Shown here in pieces: positions 986 to 19,928 of a stretch of DNA of 64,000 bases (position 1 is its first letter; each line of letters starts with the position of its first letter). The position numbers were made by a program, and so were the translations under genes. The stretch is from Candidatus Roseilinea sp. (GTDB lineage Bacteria; Chloroflexota; Anaerolineae; J036; Brachytrichaceae), in contig BPHV01000002.1 of assembly GCA_026003755.1 (NCBI GenBank), positions 558,001 to 622,000 on the forward strand, written 5' to 3'. Below the pieces are notes generated by a model. The model ran no database searches, was not told the origin of the DNA, and saw only the letters and a program-made list of their open reading frames with translations.

Positions 986-3589
986 TTAAACTTTTTGCTT
1001 GAGAATGCGGATATAGAGTTCCAGGCAGCGAAAGAACCGCCCGTTTTGGACATCTTCCGGTTTGACCACATCCGGCAGGGGGTTGCCCTGAGCGTCTTTC
1101 CGGTCAAACAGGCCCGCTTCTTTGAGGGTGGTCCGGACCAGGTGATCCAGTTCCTGGCCCATCCCCCACGAGGCACGCTTCGTCTCCAGCAAGGCCCATA
1201 CAGCGTGCAGGCCGGTGTCGGTGATGCCGCTTTGCTTCAGAGCAGCCCACATCTGGATCAGGCGCGGCAGTTCCTCCAGCAACATCACGTCCCGCTGAGG
1301 GTCAAAGCGAAAGCGCTGGGCGGTGCTTTCCAGGAAGAGATAAGCAAAACGTGATGGGGTGATGGACGTCACGTCGTCTTCTTCCAATTCTTCGACGTGC
1401 ACCAGCCAACGACCATTATGCTGAAAGCGATAGTTGCGTTGCTGCGGGGCGTTATCGGCAAAGTGTTCAACGAAAAAGTACGGATACCACTTATCCTCGG
1501 TCGTGTTATCGCCCATTTTGACTTTAAGAGAAATTCTTTGCTCGCCTTGTGAAAGATGCACAAGCTGACGTAGGTCCTGATCACCCCGGCAGCACTCGAC
1601 TTTCCACTGCTCTTCCCCCAGCGGCGTCTCCAGCATCCGCCGCGCCGCGTCCATCACCGCCAGGAGCGGGGTTTTGCGCGGGAAGAAAACGATGCCGAGA
1701 AAGAGCGGCAGGCGGTTGCGCACCTTGCCGAACTGTGTTTCGTACTCGGCGTGAATCTGATCGGCGATCTCCAGCGCGTCGGCGGCGGGGACGAAGGCCA
1801 GGAACTGGTCAGGGGAGGCGAGCAGCGGGAGATAGGGCGCATAGGTGCCCATATCGCCCGGCGCCGGCATCACACCCTGCACGGTAAAGGTGATTGGGCG
1901 GGAGGGGACATCCGGGTCGGCAACGGTGATCTGCTCCCCCTGCTGGATATTTCCCACCCATTGCAGGTTGCTGATGGTGACGAAATACTGCCCTTGCGCC
2001 TGCCAGAGCAGACTGATGGGCTTGCCGCCGACGGTGCCATCGTAGGGCACGTTCTCTTTCCAGCCTGTTCTCCGATCCGGAATCACCAGCCAGCGGACGA
2101 GGCGCACGGCATCACCCCTGCTGTAATCGTGCGGGGCCAGGATCTTCTGCTCCACCGTCTCCGTCCAGAATCTCTGGCAGGTCTCCCAGACGCGGCGCAG
2201 GCGGGCCGGGGAGGGATTCTTGGGCGTGAAAGTGTTGGTTTGCGGGTCGGTCTTGACCAGCATCGTCTGCACCAGGTCGCCGGAGAGCCAGTCGTCCAGG
2301 CCGAATTTGCCCACGATGAGCGCCACGCGGCCGTTGGCGTCGGCGAGTTCGTCCATCCAGATGGTGCGGTTTGGGTTGGCCTGCCATTCGGCGATGCGGG
2401 AGCCGCGGCGCTTTTCGCAGTGCGCGCAGGCTTCCCGGCCCTCGCGCATCGGGCGCAGGCGGCAGACGGGGCAGAGTTCCCAGTTTCCCTGGCCAACCTT
2501 TGTCCACTCCTGTTGCCAGTAAGTGTTCAGGTTCTGGCTATCAAAAGGCTGCGCCAGGGCTTCCAGCGCTTCCCTGCGGGCCTTGGCCAGGATGCCACTG
2601 AGTTGCTCGGTGGCGGTTGCCCCATCGCCCACGGTGACGGCGATGCGTGGGGCCAGTTCGGGTTCGACCGCTTCCACGCGGCGACGGATCTCCTGCGCCA
2701 GGTCAGCGGGCAGGTTGAGGTCGGGGAAGGTGAAGTAGATGCCGGTGGTATCGCGGTAGATTTCGTTGCTGAGCGGGTATTCTTCCTCCACCAGTTGCTT
2801 GACCGCTGCACAGGCCTGCTCCACGGCGCGCTGATAGCCGAGCAGGTCGGCAATTTTGACTGCTTTTGCGTAGAGGCCGAGCACGTCAAAGTTGACGCGC
2901 AGCAGGCGCCAGCGAGAATGTCTTATCCCAAGCAACTCTTCCGCAACCCGCGATTTGTAGAGACTACAAACTGCCCATCCCCAATCCCACAGAGTGACTT
3001 CGTTGACAGGACGTCGGGTATCTCCCCAGGCATTTGAGAAGACTTCGCGGATTGCAGATAGTACGTTTGCTCTATCGTTGGGCAGTGAAAGGTTTTGTAG
3101 TAGCAGTTTGACGGTTGACAAAAGTGGTCCGAGCAATTCCTGCGGTTCAATCGGTTCAAAGCCGAAAGCGGTGGCAATCCGATCGCAGGCTTGATCAAGT
3201 TGTTCTTGTTCTCCCAGCTCTTTATCCACATGGGCCAAAGCATGGCACTCTCCCAAACGCTGAACCAACCAACTGCTGTGCCGTTTTGCGCTTGAAGGAT
3301 CGCGGCCTTCCTGGCACAAGGTTTTCAAGTCCAGCGATTGGTCGCCAAACGTTACGTTAATCCCCTTCAGTGATCGGGCAAAGTCTCCAGGACTTAGAGA
3401 TCGGCCACGTTGCTGCCATTGCTGTTTTTTGGCTTGGGCCACAGTAGAACTTTTCTGCCAGGATGATGCAACAGCCGTATCAATACATTTCTGCCAGTCA
3501 TGCAGCAGCGCGGCGATTTCGGCCAAGAGCAGGGCGTCGCGGTTTTGTTTCAGCACCTCAAGGGAGTTCACTTTTCCCTCCTCAGCCAT
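986..3589 (-). CDS. csx11: Csx11-type Cas10 large subunit (type III-C/MTH326-like), HD present, GGDD absent
   Basis: 867 aa large subunit of a type III CRISPR effector. The N-terminus has an HD-nuclease-like motif (LLHDWQK, H30-D31). A CxxC-x11-CxxC zinc ribbon lies at about 373-391. Where Cas10 proteins carry the cyclase GGDD there is only VGKFGLDDWLSGD (about 426-438), followed by NPSPARLRRVWETCQRFW, a pattern I associate with the Csx11 family. Family knowledge: Csx11 belongs to the divergent Cas10 set in which the palm/cyclase domain is considered inactive, so cyclic oligoadenylate production is not expected. It starts directly after the stop of a 40-codon ORF (3590) and is followed 11 bases later by cmr4. 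Assignment to III-C rather than III-B is inferred from the missing GGDD and overall look. Confidence 0.85.
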   Translation of the reverse strand: MAEEGKVNSLEVLKQNRDALLLAEIAALLHDWQKCIDTAVASSWQKSSTVAQAKKQQWQQRGRSLSPGDFARSLKGINVTFGDQSLDLKTLCQEGRDPSSAKRHSSWLVQRLGECHALAHVDKELGEQEQLDQACDRIATAFGFEPIEPQELLGPLLSTVKLLLQNLSLPNDRANVLSAIREVFSNAWGDTRRPVNEVTLWDWGWAVCSLYKSRVAEELLGIRHSRWRLLRVNFDVLGLYAKAVKIADLLGYQRAVEQACAAVKQLVEEEYPLSNEIYRDTTGIYFTFPDLNLPADLAQEIRRRVEAVEPELAPRIAVTVGDGATATEQLSGILAKARREALEALAQPFDSQNLNTYWQQEWTKVGQGNWELCPVCRLRPMREGREACAHCEKRRGSRIAEWQANPNRTIWMDELADANGRVALIVGKFGLDDWLSGDLVQTMLVKTDPQTNTFTPKNPSPARLRRVWETCQRFWTETVEQKILAPHDYSRGDAVRLVRWLVIPDRRTGWKENVPYDGTVGGKPISLLWQAQGQYFVTISNLQWVGNIQQGEQITVADPDVPSRPITFTVQGVMPAPGDMGTYAPYLPLLASPDQFLAFVPAADALEIADQIHAEYETQFGKVRNRLPLFLGIVFFPRKTPLLAVMDAARRMLETPLGEEQWKVECCRGDQDLRQLVHLSQGEQRISLKVKMGDNTTEDKWYPYFFVEHFADNAPQQRNYRFQHNGRWLVHVEELEEDDVTSITPSRFAYLFLESTAQRFRFDPQRDVMLLEELPRLIQMWAALKQSGITDTGLHAVWALLETKRASWGMGQELDHLVRTTLKEAGLFDRKDAQGNPLPDVVKPEDVQNGRFFRCLELYIRILKQKV

Positions 3590-4055
<466 letters not shown>

Positions 4056-4478
4056 TCACCCCCCACCGATGATCTGCCGGGCCAGGGCAAGGGCTTCCTC
4101 GGCGATCTGCAGCGCCTGACGGGCGTCCTCTTCATCGAAAAGTTCCCAGGGGGTGCGGCCACCGACTTCATCGCCGTAGTCGGTCTGGATGTGAACATCC
4201 GGTCCAAGCAGTTCGGCCTTTTCGGTCAGAGCGCGCACCGCAGGGGACTGCGATGGAGGGAAGCGTCCTTGTTCCAGCGCGGCGCGCAAATGGACGGCCG
4301 GGTTATGGGTACGTCCGACCGGGCCAAGGAGCGCCAACACGGCCTTGGCTGCGTGCTCCACGGCCAGTTGACCATTGTCCAGGGCTGAGCGCCAGCGCTT
4401 GAGGTCCACATCTTGCCGCGCCTCTTCCAGAAAGCCTTCTGCCAGGCGCAGGCGATAGTGCGCTTCAGGGTTGTTCAT
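4056..4478 (-). CDS. HEPN-domain protein (putative RNase toxin)
   Basis: 140 aa from the ATG at 4478, chosen because it gives an ATGA overlap with the upstream MNT stop (4475); a longer reading frame from 4589 would run well inside that gene. All-helical protein with the HEPN layout: N-terminal YRLRLAEGFLEEA, central ALDNGQLAVEHAAKAVLAL, then GRTHNPAVHL, which satisfies the Rx4-6H RNase motif as R-x6-H. HEPN proteins of this size are usually toxins of HEPN/MNT pairs, cutting RNA unless held by the MNT partner. MNT genes flank it on both sides (4475-4945 and 3699-4052). Position inside a CRISPR effector operon suggests a role in, or addiction to, the type III system; that is inference. Confidence 0.78.
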   Translation of the reverse strand: MNNPEAHYRLRLAEGFLEEARQDVDLKRWRSALDNGQLAVEHAAKAVLALLGPVGRTHNPAVHLRAALEQGRFPPSQSPAVRALTEKAELLGPDVHIQTDYGDEVGGRTPWELFDEEDARQALQIAEEALALARQIIGGG

Positions 4479-4945
4479 ACGAACCCCTCCCATCCAGGCG
4501 TCAGAACCGGGGAGCCTCCGTGCCACATCAGGTCGCGGCCAATGCGCCGTCGTACCAGGCCCCAGGTCTGGATTTGCCTGCGCAGCCAATCCAGGCGGGG
4601 GGTAATGTAATTCTGACGATCAAACAAGACGATGCCATCGAGGGCGATGTCGAGGTAGAGCGCCGGCAGGCGCGACTCGAACTCTTGCGGCGTTTTGGCC
4701 AGCAAACTGATGCGCCCGCGCCAGGCTTCGGGAAGCAGGGCCCTGAGCGCAAAATGGCGGGTCAGGGTTTTGGGAGGCAGGTTGCGGGCAATAACCAGCA
4801 GGTCCCAATCGCTTTCCTCAGAAGCCTCCCCGCGCGCCTGAGAGCCGAAAAGCACAACGGCCAGCAGATCATCACCCAGGCTATCAGCAAGTGCTTCTAC
4901 TACTGGGGCGAGTCGCACAGACGGCTCTTCTTTAGAAGTTGACAC
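4475..4945 (-). CDS. nucleotidyltransferase-domain protein (MNT-like), larger copy
   Basis: About 156 aa from a GTG at 4945 (VSTSKEEPSV); an alternative start at 4987 would overlap the upstream RAMP gene by 56 bases instead of 14. The catalytic signature is complete: VVLFGSQARGEASEESDWDLLV, GS-x10-DxD. A long C-terminal part (FALRALLPEAWRGRISLLAKT onward, with YLDIALDGIVLFD) is typical of NTases that sit next to HEPN genes. Its stop overlaps the HEPN start (ATGA), so the two are probably made in fixed ratio. It is the first gene of the nested HEPN/MNT cassette. A role as HEPN antitoxin by AMPylation is family knowledge, not shown here. Confidence 0.75.
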   Translation of the reverse strand: MSTSKEEPSVRLAPVVEALADSLGDDLLAVVLFGSQARGEASEESDWDLLVIARNLPPKTLTRHFALRALLPEAWRGRISLLAKTPQEFESRLPALYLDIALDGIVLFDRQNYITPRLDWLRRQIQTWGLVRRRIGRDLMWHGGSPVLTPGWEGFV

Positions 4946-5954
4946 TTCCTGCCTCCTGCGCCAGTTGGCTGAGCCTTGTGAGAGCACCTGACCGTGTTGT
5001 CACTCTGCCTTCAATCTCATCTTTTGCCGTGCCGTAGCCGCTGGTGCGCTTGGCGGAGAAGCCGTAGGTGAGGAACAGGGCCTGCAGCCCTTCGGCGACG
5101 AGGCCCAGGTCGGCCTGTGCCTGCTGCTTGATTTCGTCTTCAGGCTTGCCGATCAGGTCAAAGGGGACGTAGAGCAGGGAGAAGGTGCCGCTGGCGCCGG
5201 CGGGGACGCATTCCAGGTAAATCGGGCGAGTGCCAGCCTTCGTTTCACGCGAGTGCGGGTTGATGACTTCCACGTCAATCAGGTTGAAGAACGTTGGATA
5301 GAACATTAACCGTCCGCTGTGGTGGGGCAATGGATCGGCAGGCTTTGCTTTGTAGTGCGTGCGCAGCAGGCGTTCATACTCAGCGCGGGCTTCGGGCTTG
5401 AGGGCGTCCAGGTAGGCGGCAAAGTCTTTGGTTTTGCCCGGCTCTTCGCCCTTTTCATCGCCGAAGAGCAGCGTCTGGGCGAATCGCTCCTGGGCAAACT
5501 GCTCCGGCGTCAGGCTGTCCTTCTTTTGCGCCAGGCGGATGTGCATCGCCGTCCAGCGCAGCAGGCCCTTCCAGGAAGCGGCGGACATCATCGGCACCTT
5601 GAAGACCTTGTCCTTGCGCACCGGGTTGACGCTCTCGGCCACGTAGAAGGGGTCGTCATCCTTGCTTATCCAGGGCTTGGCCAGGGTGAAGGTGAATTGC
5701 AGGAACCAGGAGCCGGAAGGGAGGAGGGTGAGGTCAGGCGGCTGAGGCGGATTGATTCCCAGATTGTTTAATTGCGCCTGCTGATGACTGATGAACTGAT
5801 TGAAAGTGCCAGGTGTCCGCTGCTTGCTCTTTTTGTCAAATGTCCCGTGTATCAGTTTCAGATAGGATGGTAAGGGGCTATCCTTTGTGACCAACAAGCG
5901 CAGTTGCGTGGCTTCGTTACCTTGCGGTTGGTCAATGTGCAGGTCGTAGCTCAT
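4932..5954 (-). CDS. RAMP-superfamily CRISPR protein, Cmr6-like
   Basis: 340 aa. RAMP features: SAASWKGLLRWTAMH (about residues 125-139), which matches the conserved insertion helix after the first strand, and a C-terminal glycine-rich loop FSAKRTSGYGTAK. Length and order after Cmr1 suggest the Cmr6 position, a terminal Cas7-type subunit of the backbone, but similarity to canonical Cmr6 is weak by eye. It overlaps cmr1 upstream by 23 bases and the first MNT gene downstream by 14 bases, so it bridges the CRISPR genes and the toxin-antitoxin cassette. Alternative: a subtype-specific Cas7 of III-C without a standard name. Confidence 0.72.
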   Translation of the reverse strand: MSYDLHIDQPQGNEATQLRLLVTKDSPLPSYLKLIHGTFDKKSKQRTPGTFNQFISHQQAQLNNLGINPPQPPDLTLLPSGSWFLQFTFTLAKPWISKDDDPFYVAESVNPVRKDKVFKVPMMSAASWKGLLRWTAMHIRLAQKKDSLTPEQFAQERFAQTLLFGDEKGEEPGKTKDFAAYLDALKPEARAEYERLLRTHYKAKPADPLPHHSGRLMFYPTFFNLIDVEVINPHSRETKAGTRPIYLECVPAGASGTFSLLYVPFDLIGKPEDEIKQQAQADLGLVAEGLQALFLTYGFSAKRTSGYGTAKDEIEGRVTTRSGALTRLSQLAQEAGSVNF

Positions 5955-6861
5955 GGAGCACCTCCTCGCCGGTTTTCACCGTGTAGTTTCCTTGGCCAAG
6001 CAACTGCTTGATTCGCTTTATAATCCCACCGCGCATTTGGGCATCCCTGGCATAGCCCCAAATGCGTCCGCCATCGGCGCGAAAGGAAAAGAGCTTTTTG
6101 CTGATAGCATCGCTCTGGGAAGTTCCCCTTTTGCCTTGAAGGAATTTTTGCACCTCGTCAGCACTTTCTAGAGGCCGGCCTTTACCATCCAGCCCCATCA
6201 GTGAATTCATTTTCAATCTTGATAAGAAGCCGCCGCTCACAAAAAAGAAATAGCGCAAATCAGGATGGCCTGAAACATTCTTCTTTTGACGGAATCTTTG
6301 TAAGAAGGCTTGAATATCATTTGGTCTTTGAAGTGTTGGGCTGGCGCCAATCCAAGAGATGATTCCGAAATCTTCCCCCATTGGTCCTTTCTGTGGCTTG
6401 AGCGTTGTTTTACCTCCCAACGCACCATATCTGGCGGCAATTTCCACAGATTTAGTCAGCAACCACTTTTCCTCTTCAGTGATTGGGCGCAGTTCCAGAA
6501 ATTCCAGGTGAAAGGTGATGTCTTTTTTCGCCAGAGCATCTTCAATGGGTTGTCCCTGCTCATTTAGCACACGCAACCGAAATTTTCGCCCCCAACCCGT
6601 GCAGCCGAACAGGTAACAGGCAGCGCACAGTTGTTTTTCGGGCGGATCGGGCTTGCGGGGGTCATACTCACAGCGCACCTTTGGATCTTCGCTCGTAGGG
6701 TCGCACGCATATCCGCCCAGGCCGCGCACCAGGGCTTCGTACCACCAGCGCAGCGAGCCGATAAGCCCCGTCTCGTGCAGGCGGTCGCAGGTTTGGTCCA
6801 CGCCGCCGGTCCAGAGCGGGGTTAATGTCTTCAGGGTGATGCGTTGAGAAGAAGAGACCAT
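5932..6861 (-). CDS. cmr1: Cmr1-like RAMP, first gene of type III effector operon
   Basis: The hallmark Cmr1 N-terminus is clear: ITLKTLTPLWTGGVDQ, then LIGSLRWWYEALVRGLGGYACDP, then CAACYLFGCTGWGRKFRL, which is the Cmr1 pattern of a target-binding RAMP with a small Cys cluster. FFFVSGGFL and GGRIWGYARDAQ further on fit RAMP beta strands and loops. In Cmr complexes this subunit caps the 3' end and helps bind target RNA. I chose the ATG at 6861 (309 aa), with AAAGGGA about 9 bases upstream. A GTG at 6882 would extend it by seven residues but would leave almost no 5' leader from the likely promoter. Nothing co-directional lies immediately upstream, so this gene starts the operon. Confidence 0.83.
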   Translation of the reverse strand: MVSSSQRITLKTLTPLWTGGVDQTCDRLHETGLIGSLRWWYEALVRGLGGYACDPTSEDPKVRCEYDPRKPDPPEKQLCAACYLFGCTGWGRKFRLRVLNEQGQPIEDALAKKDITFHLEFLELRPITEEEKWLLTKSVEIAARYGALGGKTTLKPQKGPMGEDFGIISWIGASPTLQRPNDIQAFLQRFRQKKNVSGHPDLRYFFFVSGGFLSRLKMNSLMGLDGKGRPLESADEVQKFLQGKRGTSQSDAISKKLFSFRADGGRIWGYARDAQMRGGIIKRIKQLLGQGNYTVKTGEEVLHELRPAH

Positions 6862-6890
6862 GCCTGATTCCCTTTGTCCCACCGTCGTTA

Positions 6891-6917: not shown

Positions 6918-7052
6918 AAATCCCGCCGATCTGTCAAGTTATTGTAGATCGCGCAGTTGCTTTTTACATCTCAGGCGCCGGAGGTGAATTGCGATCCAGG
7001 CGGACCATACCCCGTCATCTGAAGCGGTCTAATCCTGCTCGCCCTTGGCACG

Positions 7053-8639
7053 CTACGCCACGAGCAACGCGTATTCCATTGAGTCGGCCAACGCCTGCCA
7101 TGAGGCATCTACGATGTTGGACGAGCAGCCGACCGTCGTCCAGGTGCGATGGCCGTTGGTCGAGTCAATCGTCACGCGCGTGGTGGCGCCGGTCGCTTTG
7201 TCGCTGTCAATGATGCGCACCTTGTAGTCCACCAAGCGCATCTTTTTCAGCTTGGGGTAGTGCGGCAACAGCGCCTTGCGCGTAGCCAGGTCGAGCGCGT
7301 TCACCGGCCCGTCGCCCTCCGCAGCGGTATGGGTGATCTCGTCGTCCACCTTGATCTTGACGGTCGCCTCGGCCAGCACGCCACGCCCGTCGCGATGCTC
7401 GACGACCACCATGTAATCCAGCAGCTCGAATAACTTGACGTAGCCGGGCTGCGCGCGGCGCAGCATGAGTTCCACGCTGGCGTCGGCGCCCTCGAAGAAG
7501 AAGCCGCGGTTCTCCATCTCCTTGATGCGCTGCAGCACTTGCCTGACCTCGACGCCGTCGGGGTTGAGGCCGAACTCTCTGGCTTTGTAGGCGATGTTGC
7601 CGCGGCCGCTCAGCTCGCTCACCAACACGCGCTTCTGGTTGCCCACGCGCGCCGGGTCAATGTGTTGGTAGCTCTCTTCCACCTTGAGGATGGCGGCGAC
7701 GTGGATGCCGCCTTTGTGCGCGAAGGCCGCCTGCCCGACGTAGGGGTGGCGGATGTCGAGGGTGAGGTTGGCGATCTCGAAGACGTAGCGCGCCAGTTCG
7801 GTGAGCCCTCGCAGTTGCTCGTCGCTCACGCAGTCGTCGTTCATCTTCAGCTTCAAGTTGGCCAGCGTGGTCACCAGGTCGCAGTTGCCCACCCGCTCGC
7901 CGATGCCGTTGATGGTGCCTTGCACCTGCGCGCAGCCGGCGCGCACCGCAGCCAGCGCATTGGCGACGGCCACGCCGGCGTCGTTGTGGGTGTGAATCCC
8001 AAACTTCACCTCCGACGCCCGACTCCCGACTTGACGCTCGCCGCGCTGCAACTCGCCGATCGTGAATCGCGTGATCTCCTCGATCTCCCAGGGCATGCTG
8101 CCGCCGTTGGTGTCGCACAACACCAGCCAATCGGCGCCGGCGTCGCGCGCGGCGCGCAGCGTGGCCAGCGCGTAGTCCTTGTCCAGCTTAAAGCCGTCGA
8201 AGAAATGCTCGGCGTCGTGCACCACCTCTCGGCCGCGCGCCTTGAAGAAGGCCACGCTGTCGCCGATCATCTTCAGATTCTCCTCCAGCGTCGTCTCCAG
8301 CACGTGCGTCACGTGCAAGGGGCTGGTCTTGGCGACCAGCGTGACCACCGGCGTGCCGGCGTCGAGCAACGCGCGAATCTGCGGGTCTTGCTCGACGTTG
8401 GCGTTGGCCTTGCGCGTGCTGCCAAAGGCGGCCAGCCGCGCATGTTTGAAGTCCAGCGTCTTCGCCCGCGCGAAGAACTCGGCGTCCTTCGGGTTGCTGC
8501 CGGGCCAGCCGCCCTCGATGTAGTGCATGCCGAATTCGTCCAGCCGCTGCGCGATGCGCAGCTTGTCCTCGACGGATAAGTTGACGCCCTCGCCCTGTGT
8601 GCCATCTCGCAGCGTCGTGTCGTAAAGCATCGTCGTCAT
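7053..8639 (-). CDS. cimA: (R)-citramalate synthase
   Basis: 528 aa from the ATG at 8639 (MTTMLYDTTLRDGTQGEG); a TTG three codons earlier is less likely. It condenses pyruvate and acetyl-CoA to citramalate, the threonine-independent entry to isoleucine synthesis. DTTLRDGTQ, GIHTHNDAGVAVANAL and [14 protein letters not shown] are the HMGL-like TIM-barrel motifs. NLTLDIRHPYVGQAAFAHKGGIHV and the C-terminal LeuA-type regulatory domain (about 390-528) identify the CimA branch rather than LeuA, and a separate leuA lies at 13106. The DGTQGEG N-terminus and EGGWPGSNPKD are typical of CimA. The gene has its own promoter and an isoleucine-rich leader peptide upstream, which fits feedback by Ile supply. 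Confidence 0.93.
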   Translation of the reverse strand: MTTMLYDTTLRDGTQGEGVNLSVEDKLRIAQRLDEFGMHYIEGGWPGSNPKDAEFFARAKTLDFKHARLAAFGSTRKANANVEQDPQIRALLDAGTPVVTLVAKTSPLHVTHVLETTLEENLKMIGDSVAFFKARGREVVHDAEHFFDGFKLDKDYALATLRAARDAGADWLVLCDTNGGSMPWEIEEITRFTIGELQRGERQVGSRASEVKFGIHTHNDAGVAVANALAAVRAGCAQVQGTINGIGERVGNCDLVTTLANLKLKMNDDCVSDEQLRGLTELARYVFEIANLTLDIRHPYVGQAAFAHKGGIHVAAILKVEESYQHIDPARVGNQKRVLVSELSGRGNIAYKAREFGLNPDGVEVRQVLQRIKEMENRGFFFEGADASVELMLRRAQPGYVKLFELLDYMVVVEHRDGRGVLAEATVKIKVDDEITHTAAEGDGPVNALDLATRKALLPHYPKLKKMRLVDYKVRIIDSDKATGATTRVTIDSTNGHRTWTTVGCSSNIVDASWQALADSMEYALLVA

Positions 8640-8695
8640 CAGAATCAACCTCGCTCGTTCATTCGATTTCTGTGTGGTCGCAAATCGAAATGAAC

Positions 8696-8722
8696 AGAGC
8701 CTTCCGGGTTGCGGAAGGCTCT
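8696..8722 (-). terminator. attenuator hairpin ahead of cimA
   Basis: Perfect 10-bp inverted repeat (8696-8705 with 8713-8722, AGAGCCTTCC/GGAAGGCTCT) with a 7-base loop, between the Ile-rich leader ORF and cimA. In the transcript it is followed by a mixed run (TGTTCATTTCGATTT) rather than a clean U tract, so termination may be weak. Its 5' arm plus loop (8706-8719) can pair at 11 of 14 positions with leader segment 8763-8776, a candidate antiterminator. Confidence 0.6.
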
Positions 8723-8755
8723 GCGATTTGCCTGCTCACGATATCACTGGCGCGA

Positions 8756-8854
8756 TCAGCTCGCCTGCCCCGACCCGTGCCCACGATTCGCGCTCCGAAT
8801 AATCGAAACGCGAATCGAAATAATGGCGATAGTCTGCAGAGCGATCGCGCGCAT
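8756..8854 (-). CDS. isoleucine-rich leader peptide of cimA (attenuation)
   Basis: 32-aa ORF, ATG at 8854, TGA at 8756-8758. It begins MRAIALQTIAIISIRVSII: seven Ile codons in 19 residues, all between residues 4 and 19, followed by a non-hydrophobic tail rich in Gly, Ser, Arg. CimA makes the isoleucine precursor, so the codon content matches the pathway end product. The start lies about 7 bases after the expected transcription start, and the ORF ends 34 bases before the hairpin at 8696-8722. The tail codons (8763-8776) overlap the candidate antiterminator strand. This is the arrangement of ribosome-mediated attenuators. A chance ORF is possible, but codon bias, promoter, hairpin and downstream gene all agree. 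Confidence 0.7.
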   Translation of the reverse strand: MRAIALQTIAIISIRVSIIRSANRGHGSGQAS

Positions 8855-8867
8855 TGTTCTGCTGAAA

Positions 8868-8895
8868 AGTCTACCCCTTCAGAGGCTGTTGTCAA
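8868..8895 (-). promoter_or_regulatory. cimA promoter
   Basis: TTGACA (8895-8890) and TAGACT (8873-8868) on the minus strand with a 16-base spacer, close to the housekeeping sigma consensus. Predicted start is near 8861, a few bases before the leader-peptide ATG at 8854. This makes cimA a separate transcription unit from the ilv-leu operon upstream, although read-through cannot be excluded. Confidence 0.6.
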
Positions 8896-9147: not shown

Positions 9148-9708
9148 TCAGTCGCCCTTTGCGCAGTCCGCGGCGAGCATCGCCTCCAGCGCGGCAAAGT
9201 TGCGCCGGAAGCGTTCCGGGTTGCGCTTTAGGCTCTCGCGCTCCACGCGGGGCATGATGTTATTGAAGGCTTGGCGCAGCATGTCCATCTCGATCTGGCC
9301 GGATTGCAGCAGCGCCAGCACGTCCTGGAAGTCGCCTTCGCGCCCGCGTTCGATTTTGCTGAGCGCCGTGCTGTAGAGGTCGAAGTGAAAAACGTCCACC
9401 TGGCCGAAGCGGCCGACGTGCTTGGCGCGCTCCTTCCAGCCCGCCGGCAACGGGATGAAGTCGCCGGGCGAGGCTTGCTCGACGTTGATCTGCAGCTCCT
9501 CTTTCAGTCGGCGCACCACCTGGGCAAACTCGGCCTCATGTTCGTCGTCCACTTCGTAATGGATGTCAATATCGAGCGATTGATCGCGCAGCCCTTCATA
9601 CACCAACGTCGTGCCGCCGACGAGATATACCCGCGCCGGGTGACGAAACTCGATGCCGAGCTTCACCAAGAAGTAGTGCACGCGTAGGCGGTCTATTGGC
9701 GGGCGCAT
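9148..9708 (-). CDS. nucleotidyltransferase-fold protein (DUF6036/AbiEii-like)
   Basis: 186 aa from the ATG at 9708; a TTG at 9732 has a good GGGAGG ribosome site and is a real alternative. The core is VYLVGGTTLVYEGLRDQSLDIDIHYEV: GG-(T)-x9-DxD, the signature of nucleotidyltransferase-fold proteins of the AbiEii/DUF6036 group. It then has FHFDLYSTALSKIERGREGDF, in which the LxKxxR-type segment is common in that group. Such proteins are often toxins or antitoxin-like partners. It is preceded at 1 base by an unrecognised 197-aa gene, suggesting a two-gene module appended to the end of the leu operon. Substrate and role are unknown. Confidence 0.65.
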   Translation of the reverse strand: MRPPIDRLRVHYFLVKLGIEFRHPARVYLVGGTTLVYEGLRDQSLDIDIHYEVDDEHEAEFAQVVRRLKEELQINVEQASPGDFIPLPAGWKERAKHVGRFGQVDVFHFDLYSTALSKIERGREGDFQDVLALLQSGQIEMDMLRQAFNNIMPRVERESLKRNPERFRRNFAALEAMLAADCAKGD

Positions 9709-9709
9709 G

Positions 9710-10300
9710 TTACTGAGGGGTGTCGCCCCCAACTCCCGCCTCCCGATTCGCAGGAGCGGTATGGGCAGTCAGCGGCGGGAAGTCGGGCGTCGCGCACGGC
9801 TGCTCGCACAGCAGATCCACCACCTGCTCGTAGGACGACCAGTCGTTATAAGCGCTGCGCTCAGTGAGGGCGCGCAAGCCCAACTCGCCGAACATCGCGT
9901 CGGCCGGCGGCAGCCCCATCTCGCGCGCGAAGCGTTCCTGGATCAACGGCGTCTCGCCCAAGTGCATCTTCAGCCGCGTGCGCCACATGCGCTGCAAATA
10001 CATCGCGGCGAGGTACTGCTTCCGGATTTCAGCGCGCGCTGCGTCGTCGAGCGCGACCGACGCCTGCCCCTGGACGAGGGCGGCGGCGCGCTCGGCCAGG
10101 GTGGGATGCGCCAGCAACAGGGCGGCCAGCGCGAAGCGCAGGCGCGCATCCGGGGATGCCGCCAAGCCGGCGATCAGCTCATCGTCGTCCAGCGGGCGCT
10201 CATCGCCGCGCGGCGTGGGCGCAAGATAACACAGGCCGCGCGCGTGCAAGGCGGCGACCAGCTCCTCGCGGCTGGCGGGGGGAGGTGTCATCGCGTTCAT
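9710..10300 (-). CDS. unrecognised soluble protein paired with NTase-fold gene
   Basis: About 196 aa from the ATG at 10300 (MNAMTPPPASREELVAALHARG); a GTG at 10327 would add nine residues. I do not recognise the family. It is rich in Ala, Leu and Arg and looks helical and cytoplasmic: no signal peptide or membrane segment. The middle has an alpha-helical run (LRFALAALLLAHPTLAERAAAL) and KQYLAAMYLQRMWRTRLKMH, which recalls helical partner proteins of nucleotidyltransferases. The last 20 residues are low complexity. It ends 1 base before the NTase-fold gene, so the two are probably co-translated. It follows leuD by 60 bases without a visible terminator. Confidence 0.6.
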   Translation of the reverse strand: MNAMTPPPASREELVAALHARGLCYLAPTPRGDERPLDDDELIAGLAASPDARLRFALAALLLAHPTLAERAAALVQGQASVALDDAARAEIRKQYLAAMYLQRMWRTRLKMHLGETPLIQERFAREMGLPPADAMFGELGLRALTERSAYNDWSSYEQVVDLLCEQPCATPDFPPLTAHTAPANREAGVGGDTPQ

Positions 10301-10360
10301 GTCGTCATCGCCAGCGCGATTATCCACCCAATGCCGCGCAGGTTATCGCTTGCGCAGCGC

Positions 10361-19772: not shown

Positions 19773-19803
19773 AAAAAAGCCCTCCGTTTAGGAGGGCTTT
19801 TCT
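19773..19803 (-). terminator. intrinsic terminator of the ilvB attenuator
   Basis: On the minus strand GCCCTCC - TAAAC - GGAGGGC followed by six T, with a run of A on the 5' side: a compact 7-bp GC stem extended by A-U pairs, with a proper U tract. It lies between the leader ORF (stop 19821) and ilvB (start 19708), so termination here silences the operon. Confidence 0.85.
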
Positions 19804-19850
19804 ATACCTATGGATGTGCGCTAGGCTCGCACAGTCGCCATCCTAAACGG
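19784..19850 (-). promoter_or_regulatory. antiterminator pairing of the ilvB attenuator
   Basis: RNA segment 19850-19841 (CCGUUUAGGA) is exactly complementary over 10 bases to 19793-19784 (UCCUAAACGG), which is the 5' arm plus loop of the terminator. The two structures exclude each other. The upstream strand lies in codons 27-29 of the leader ORF, behind the Leu/Val run. A third hairpin (19811-19843, core UGUGCG/CGCACA) sequesters the end of the antiterminator strand and holds the leader stop codon in its loop. Confidence 0.75.
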
Positions 19851-19928
19851 GTTATGCTCCAGGTCGCTAAGGACGAGGAGCGCGCTAATAACTAGGACGA
19901 CGACGAGCAAGCCGCTCATATTCAACAT
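19821..19928 (-). CDS. Leu/Val-rich leader peptide of the ilvB operon (attenuation)
   Basis: 35-aa ORF, ATG 19928, TAG at 19821-19823; a second in-frame ATG is at 19919. It starts MLNMSGLLVVVLVISALLVL: 12 of residues 7-20 are Leu, Val or Ile, the end products of the operon. The C-terminal part (DLEHNPFRMATVRA) is not biased; its codons 27-29 form the antiterminator strand. A stalled ribosome in the Leu/Val run would leave that strand free. An ordinary translating ribosome would clear the region and let the terminator at 19773-19803 form. The promoter's predicted start is at or within two bases of the first ATG, so the peptide is either leaderless or begins at the second ATG. Confidence 0.8.
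   Translation of the reverse strand: MLNMSGLLVVVLVISALLVLSDLEHNPFRMATVRA

Follow-up and report, generated by a model that had tools for sequence, protein, structure and literature searches.

Upstream of the citramalate synthase gene cimA in a genome of Candidatus Roseilinea we find what is, as read from the sequence, a classical three-helix leader-peptide attenuator specific for isoleucine (Ile). The arrangement is kept throughout one family of Chloroflexota, the Roseilinea lineage; its mechanism is a known one while its target gene is new. We consider it highly likely that the element is a ribosome-mediated transcription attenuator which governs cimA through the supply of charged isoleucyl-tRNA. 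Such a leader would very probably let the cell switch the pathway on only when Ile runs short. The window, i.e. the whole stretch of DNA that was analysed, is 64,000 nucleotides long, and all positions below refer to it unless another contig is named.

cimA lies on the minus strand at 7053-8639, with its ATG at 8639, and encodes the enzyme that opens an alternative route to Ile. Its product scores 676 bits against TIGR00977 (cut-off 450), and no isopropylmalate synthase model comes near that score. The idea that citramalate is the only route to Ile here was dropped because relatives encode a threonine deaminase scoring over the TIGR01127 cut-off. The gene matching that model in the window’s genome (G000 contig C4:270628-271744) is split over two frames, probably by a frameshift or a sequencing error, and is intact in relatives. 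Contig C4 of the same genome also carries a further, incomplete copy of the 3’ part of cimA (L274:1726-2686), which is 97.9% identical to window positions 7038-7997, contains a stop codon and is either a decayed duplicate or an assembly artefact. Directly 3’ of cimA are genes resembling those of a Type III CRISPR-Cas system (Cas10/Cmr2 palm domain, RAMP proteins; 986-6882, minus strand), and between leuD and cimA (9148-10327, minus strand) are genes for a DUF6036 nucleotidyltransferase and for a protein with no family match.

The predicted leader peptide is encoded by a short ORF of 32 codons, MRAIALQTIAIISIRVSIIRSANRGHGSGQAS, at 8854-8756 on the minus strand, and it carries codons for the end product of the pathway, Ile. 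A sequence-only reading of the window had pointed to this ORF and to seven Ile among its first 19 residues; both are present exactly where it placed them, the Ile codons being numbers 4, 9, 11, 12, 14, 18 and 19. To place this enrichment in context, all 1690 start codons that open ORFs of 19-60 codons on either strand of the whole window were compared. Only the cimA leader has at least six Ile within its first 19 codons (1/1690), and the binomial probability of such richness is about 2.5e-6. On that count, and on the leader homologues found in relatives (see below), a chance ORF was rejected. The coding signal from within-genus substitutions is mild, with 34 synonymous and 43 nonsynonymous changes in frame against 25:47 and 19:48 in the two other frames.

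Upstream of the ORF, the sigma-70-type promoter named in the same reading, TTGACA-16-TAGACT, is found on the minus strand at 8868-8895 (TTGACA at 8895-8890, a 16-nt spacer, TAGACT at 8873-8868). It matches the consensus at 10/12 positions, and a promoter scan returned this one site against 0.0 expected. Of the 26 relatives, 16 have a similar TTGACA-16-TAnACT-like promoter 38-43 nt ahead of the start codon of the leader. From this spacing, transcripts are expected to have about 6 nt ahead of the ATG, and the ORF would thus be near-leaderless, without an evident Shine-Dalgarno site.

Between the ORF and cimA lies a GC-rich, terminator-like hairpin, GCAGAGCCTTCCG CAACC CGGAAGGCTCTGT (8694-8724, minus strand; -23.5 kcal/mol). 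A hairpin of 10 bp had been described here: the hairpin stands, its length does not, since it comprises 11 bp (CAGAGCCTTCC-GCAACCC-GGAAGGCTCTG, 8723-8695), or 13 bp if the loop is taken as 5 nt. The T-rich tail that follows, TTCATTTC (8687-8694, minus strand), is a poor U-tract, and the hairpin was not called by a stricter terminator scan. Directly behind it, a second inverted repeat, TTCATTTCGATTT...AAATCGAATGAA (8657-8694, minus strand), is clear only in the window’s genome and its nearest relative. The tail of the leader ORF at 8763-8776 (minus strand; core GGGTCGGGGCAGGC), hereafter strand 2, can pair with the 5’ arm and loop of the hairpin (8719-8706) at 11 of 14 positions, as had been claimed, with an energy of -18.3 kcal/mol; this is the putative 5’ strand of the antiterminator. 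Two further elements had gone unmentioned in the sequence-only reading. One is a strong inner hairpin over the last Ile codons (CGATTCGCGTTTCGA/TCGGAGCGCGAATCG, 8784-8817, minus strand), which relatives keep with changed sequence. The other is an outer helix in which strand 1, at the start of the ORF (8836-8850, minus strand), pairs with strand 2. The fold of the whole leader has a z-score of -6.45.

We then turned to the family. A search of 60 related genomes yielded 26 cimA genes with upstream sequence, all from the same family and representing 8 genera, Ca. Roseilinea among them. In each of the 26, cimA is preceded by a leader ORF with Ile codons and by a GC-rich terminator hairpin; the outcome named beforehand as refuting the sequence-only reading, relatives that lack any Ile-rich ORF at the corresponding position, did not occur. 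The number of Ile codons per leader ranges from 3 to 11 (just 3-4 in the leaders of genus g8, Roseilinea), and Ile makes up on average 0.68 of the Ile, Leu and Val codons. The hairpins differ in sequence, with energies of -15.7 to -26.7 kcal/mol, and the T-run behind them is canonical in most genera and weak in the window’s genus. The geometry is likewise maintained. In 18/26 leaders, 18-22 nt separate the end of the last Ile codon from strand 2, which lies downstream, and the leader stop codon falls between -5 and +24 nt from the end of the antiterminator strand in 26/26, a position from which a finishing ribosome would mask that strand.

Energies of the antiterminator in single genomes were mostly no better than those of shuffled sequences, a comparison that is uninformative in these GC-rich leaders. 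Swap tests between genera were therefore used, so that support for the antiterminator comes from the family. Strand 2 from one genome was matched to the terminator arm from a different one, the energies were double-centred, and own pairs were compared with permuted ones; the windows were a fixed 42 nt ending at the stop codon, so that sites were not chosen by eye. With 12 divergent sequences the antiterminator reached p=0.0002, and with a single sequence from each of the 8 genera p=0.009. The sequestering helix of strands 1 and 2 gave 0/20000 and 5e-5 and thus covaries more strongly than the antiterminator. Joint changes of strand 2 and its partner are directly visible: GAATCG goes with CGATTC in g3, GAATC with GATTC in g6, GGATC with GATCC in g7 and GGGT with ACCC in g1. 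Together, these tests indicate an antiterminator that uses the 5’ arm of the terminator, making the two structures mutually exclusive, although it is weak in the window’s own sequence.

When the transcript was folded as far as the terminator loop (partition function), with the ribosome footprint masked, the mean antiterminator probability was 0.06 for the free RNA, 0.45-0.50 with the ribosome on the Ile codons, and 0 with the ribosome at the stop codon (0 by construction). In the window copy, the stalled-state probability is just 0.03-0.05 because other pairings compete. Given this weak antiterminator and the weak U-tract, the case for the window’s own attenuator leans on its homology with the rest of the family, in which these elements take their canonical form.

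These data bear on three other explanations. Firstly, the ORF could be spurious, and the hairpin could simply end a transcript from upstream or act on cimA as a constitutive brake. Strong hairpins upstream of genes are indeed common and the synonymous bias of the leader is only mild, but an Ile ORF at a near-fixed distance from the antiterminator strand and the hairpin in 26/26 relatives, covariation of the helices alternative to the terminator, and an Ile richness reached in the window by the cimA leader alone make this quite unlikely. Secondly, stalling on the leader could control initiation of cimA translation instead of termination. Leader control at the translational level is known in other bacteria, and the weak U-tract of the window would fit it. 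In most relatives, however, a T-run follows a canonical hairpin, and the hairpin does not include the Shine-Dalgarno-like stretch of cimA, which comes after it; we regard such translational attenuation as very unlikely. Thirdly, control by a T-box or another tRNA- or metabolite-binding RNA, with an incidental ORF, is scarcely credible: T-boxes have been reported in Dehalococcoides, likewise Chloroflexota, where they go with the genes of Ile-tRNA synthetase and with Trp genes (PMC2494555), but Rfam returned no match at the gathering threshold or at E up to 1, and with only about 6 nt between the predicted start of transcription and the ORF there is no room for a stem I. Covariance models of the Rfam amino acid leaders (Leu, Trp, His, Thr leader and ilvB types) and of the T-box found no match, on which ground a T-box, a riboswitch or an Rfam leader was rejected, and 19 cimA loci from other lineages gave no amino-acid leader or T-box match either.

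Attenuation of the citramalate route by Ile, as proposed in the sequence-only reading, thus gains support from the 26 relatives and from the covarying antiterminator and sequestering helices, and suggests the following model. Transcription would start about 6 nt before the leader ORF, which would then be translated from an almost leaderless end. When Ile is sufficient, the ribosome would reach the stop codon and cover the antiterminator strand (8776-8763), the terminator (8724-8694) would form, and transcription would halt before cimA. When Ile is scarce, we infer that the ribosome comes to a halt at the Ile codons and breaks up the pairing of strand 1 with strand 2. Strand 2, freed about 21 nt beyond the last of these codons, would capture the 5’ arm and loop of the terminator, and with the antiterminator formed the polymerase would read on into cimA, so that expression would respond to the state of Ile-tRNA. 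If the leader is not translated at all, strand 1 would sequester strand 2 and the terminator would win.

A second leader lies 11 kb from the first, before ilvB (19821-19928, minus strand). Its peptide, MLNMSGLLVVVLVISALLVLSDLEHNPFRMATVRA, contains 8 Leu, 6 Val and 1 Ile, in line with the earlier proposal of a separate unit with a different specificity, Leu/Val there against Ile at cimA. The design is the same: a near-leaderless start, a terminator of the GCCCTCC/GGAGGGC type (AGCCCTCCTAAACGGAGGGCTTTTTT, near 19780) and, at the tail of the ORF, an antiterminator strand, CGTTTAGGATGGC, which is a near-perfect partner of GCCCTCCTAAACG. A scan of the window for other leaders found only this one; its filter missed the cimA leader, probably owing to the weak T-run. 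A Leu/Val-rich leader precedes ilvB throughout the family. The Ile share of branched-chain codons in ilvB leaders is 0.13 in the family compared with 0.28 in eight outgroup families, a difference with p=0.003 (one-sided Mann-Whitney, genus means) that comes from few groups and hand-picked ORFs and ignores kinship. This lower share is suggestive, but only suggestive, of a move of Ile sensing from ilvB to cimA. In most of the eight outgroup families, cimA is found on the contig of the ilvB leader, downstream of it and in the same orientation. A possible, still tentative reading is that an ancestral branched-chain attenuator of an ilv-leu-cimA operon was split in two, the ilvB leader losing most of its Ile and keeping Leu/Val, and cimA gaining an Ile-only, near-leaderless leader. 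If so, it would be the first time that a control dedicated to the citramalate route is seen, and the codon sensors would be an example of subfunctionalisation. As they stand, the two neighbouring attenuators would share out the end products, with Ile assigned to cimA, which we take to be the Ile-committed step, and Leu/Val to ilvB.

Outside the family but within the class, 113 further cimA upstream regions were examined at the same threshold. Only two contain an Ile-rich leader, and about 110 other cimA genes have none. The two come from two unrelated Anaerolineae families: L043, with the leader MVGNTVPSRIIIIAIPLIIRSGALAVGTEPA, and L269, a contig that also bears the handle L137, with the leader MSAGLIASPNSIIIRIIAGISISIIRYMETLAVGRE. 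In L137, the strands identified by eye (CTTCTCCCAAC, GTTGGGAGAG and TTCTCCCAACC) look near-perfect in both the 1:2 and the 2:terminator-arm pairing. Because they share only the design, these leaders look like independent origins. An Ile-rich ORF before cimA in L149, an AT-rich MAG, is a weak, unconfirmed candidate. In at least some other families, cimA follows leuD directly, and the leader there, if any, would therefore lie before ilvB. Several further families of the class (L084, L089, L086, L098, L097, L076 and L079) do have leaders rich in Ile, Leu and Val ahead of ilvB, and leader-peptide attenuation looks common there.

Full-text literature searches, with most subscription papers outside their scope, turned up no report of an attenuator for cimA or for the citramalate pathway, in agreement with the sequence-only reading, and no amino-acid leader peptide in Chloroflexota. 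Among the nearest known counterparts are the leader-peptide attenuators of the ilvGMEDA, ilvBN, leu, thr and trp operons of Gammaproteobacteria. The cimA leader resembles them in its end-product codons, in its competing 1:2, 2:3 and 3:4 helices and in a stop codon that lets the finishing ribosome mask strand 2. It differs in its Ile-dominated instead of mixed codons, its near-leaderless start, its phylum and its target, cimA being absent from those operons; no homology of sequence is implied.

Beyond that group, candidate ilvB leader peptides have been described in Actinobacteria (PMC1262725) and an ilvBNC attenuator in Corynebacterium glutamicum (PMC11857589). These share with the present leader branched-chain codons in an ORF ahead of a gene for branched-chain biosynthesis, and a terminator, an antiterminator and an anti-antiterminator, but there runs of Ile, Val and Leu precede ilvB, whereas here cimA alone stands under Ile codons and ilvB has a separate Leu/Val leader. 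The histidine leader peptides before hisS/hisZ in Firmicutes (PMC2965389) are likewise attenuators outside Proteobacteria and Actinobacteria, and differ in amino acid, gene and phylum. The survey that reported them, in 2010, gave them as the only leader-peptide systems then known besides those of Proteobacteria and Actinobacteria (PMC2965389), and Chloroflexota are probably a new phylum for this type of control. The small ORFs upstream of cimA, identified here in 26 genomes, are easily overlooked; the attenuator would offer a compact Ile sensor, give the citramalate route to Ile a regulatory logic of its own and let Chloroflexota join the phyla with classical leader-peptide attenuation.
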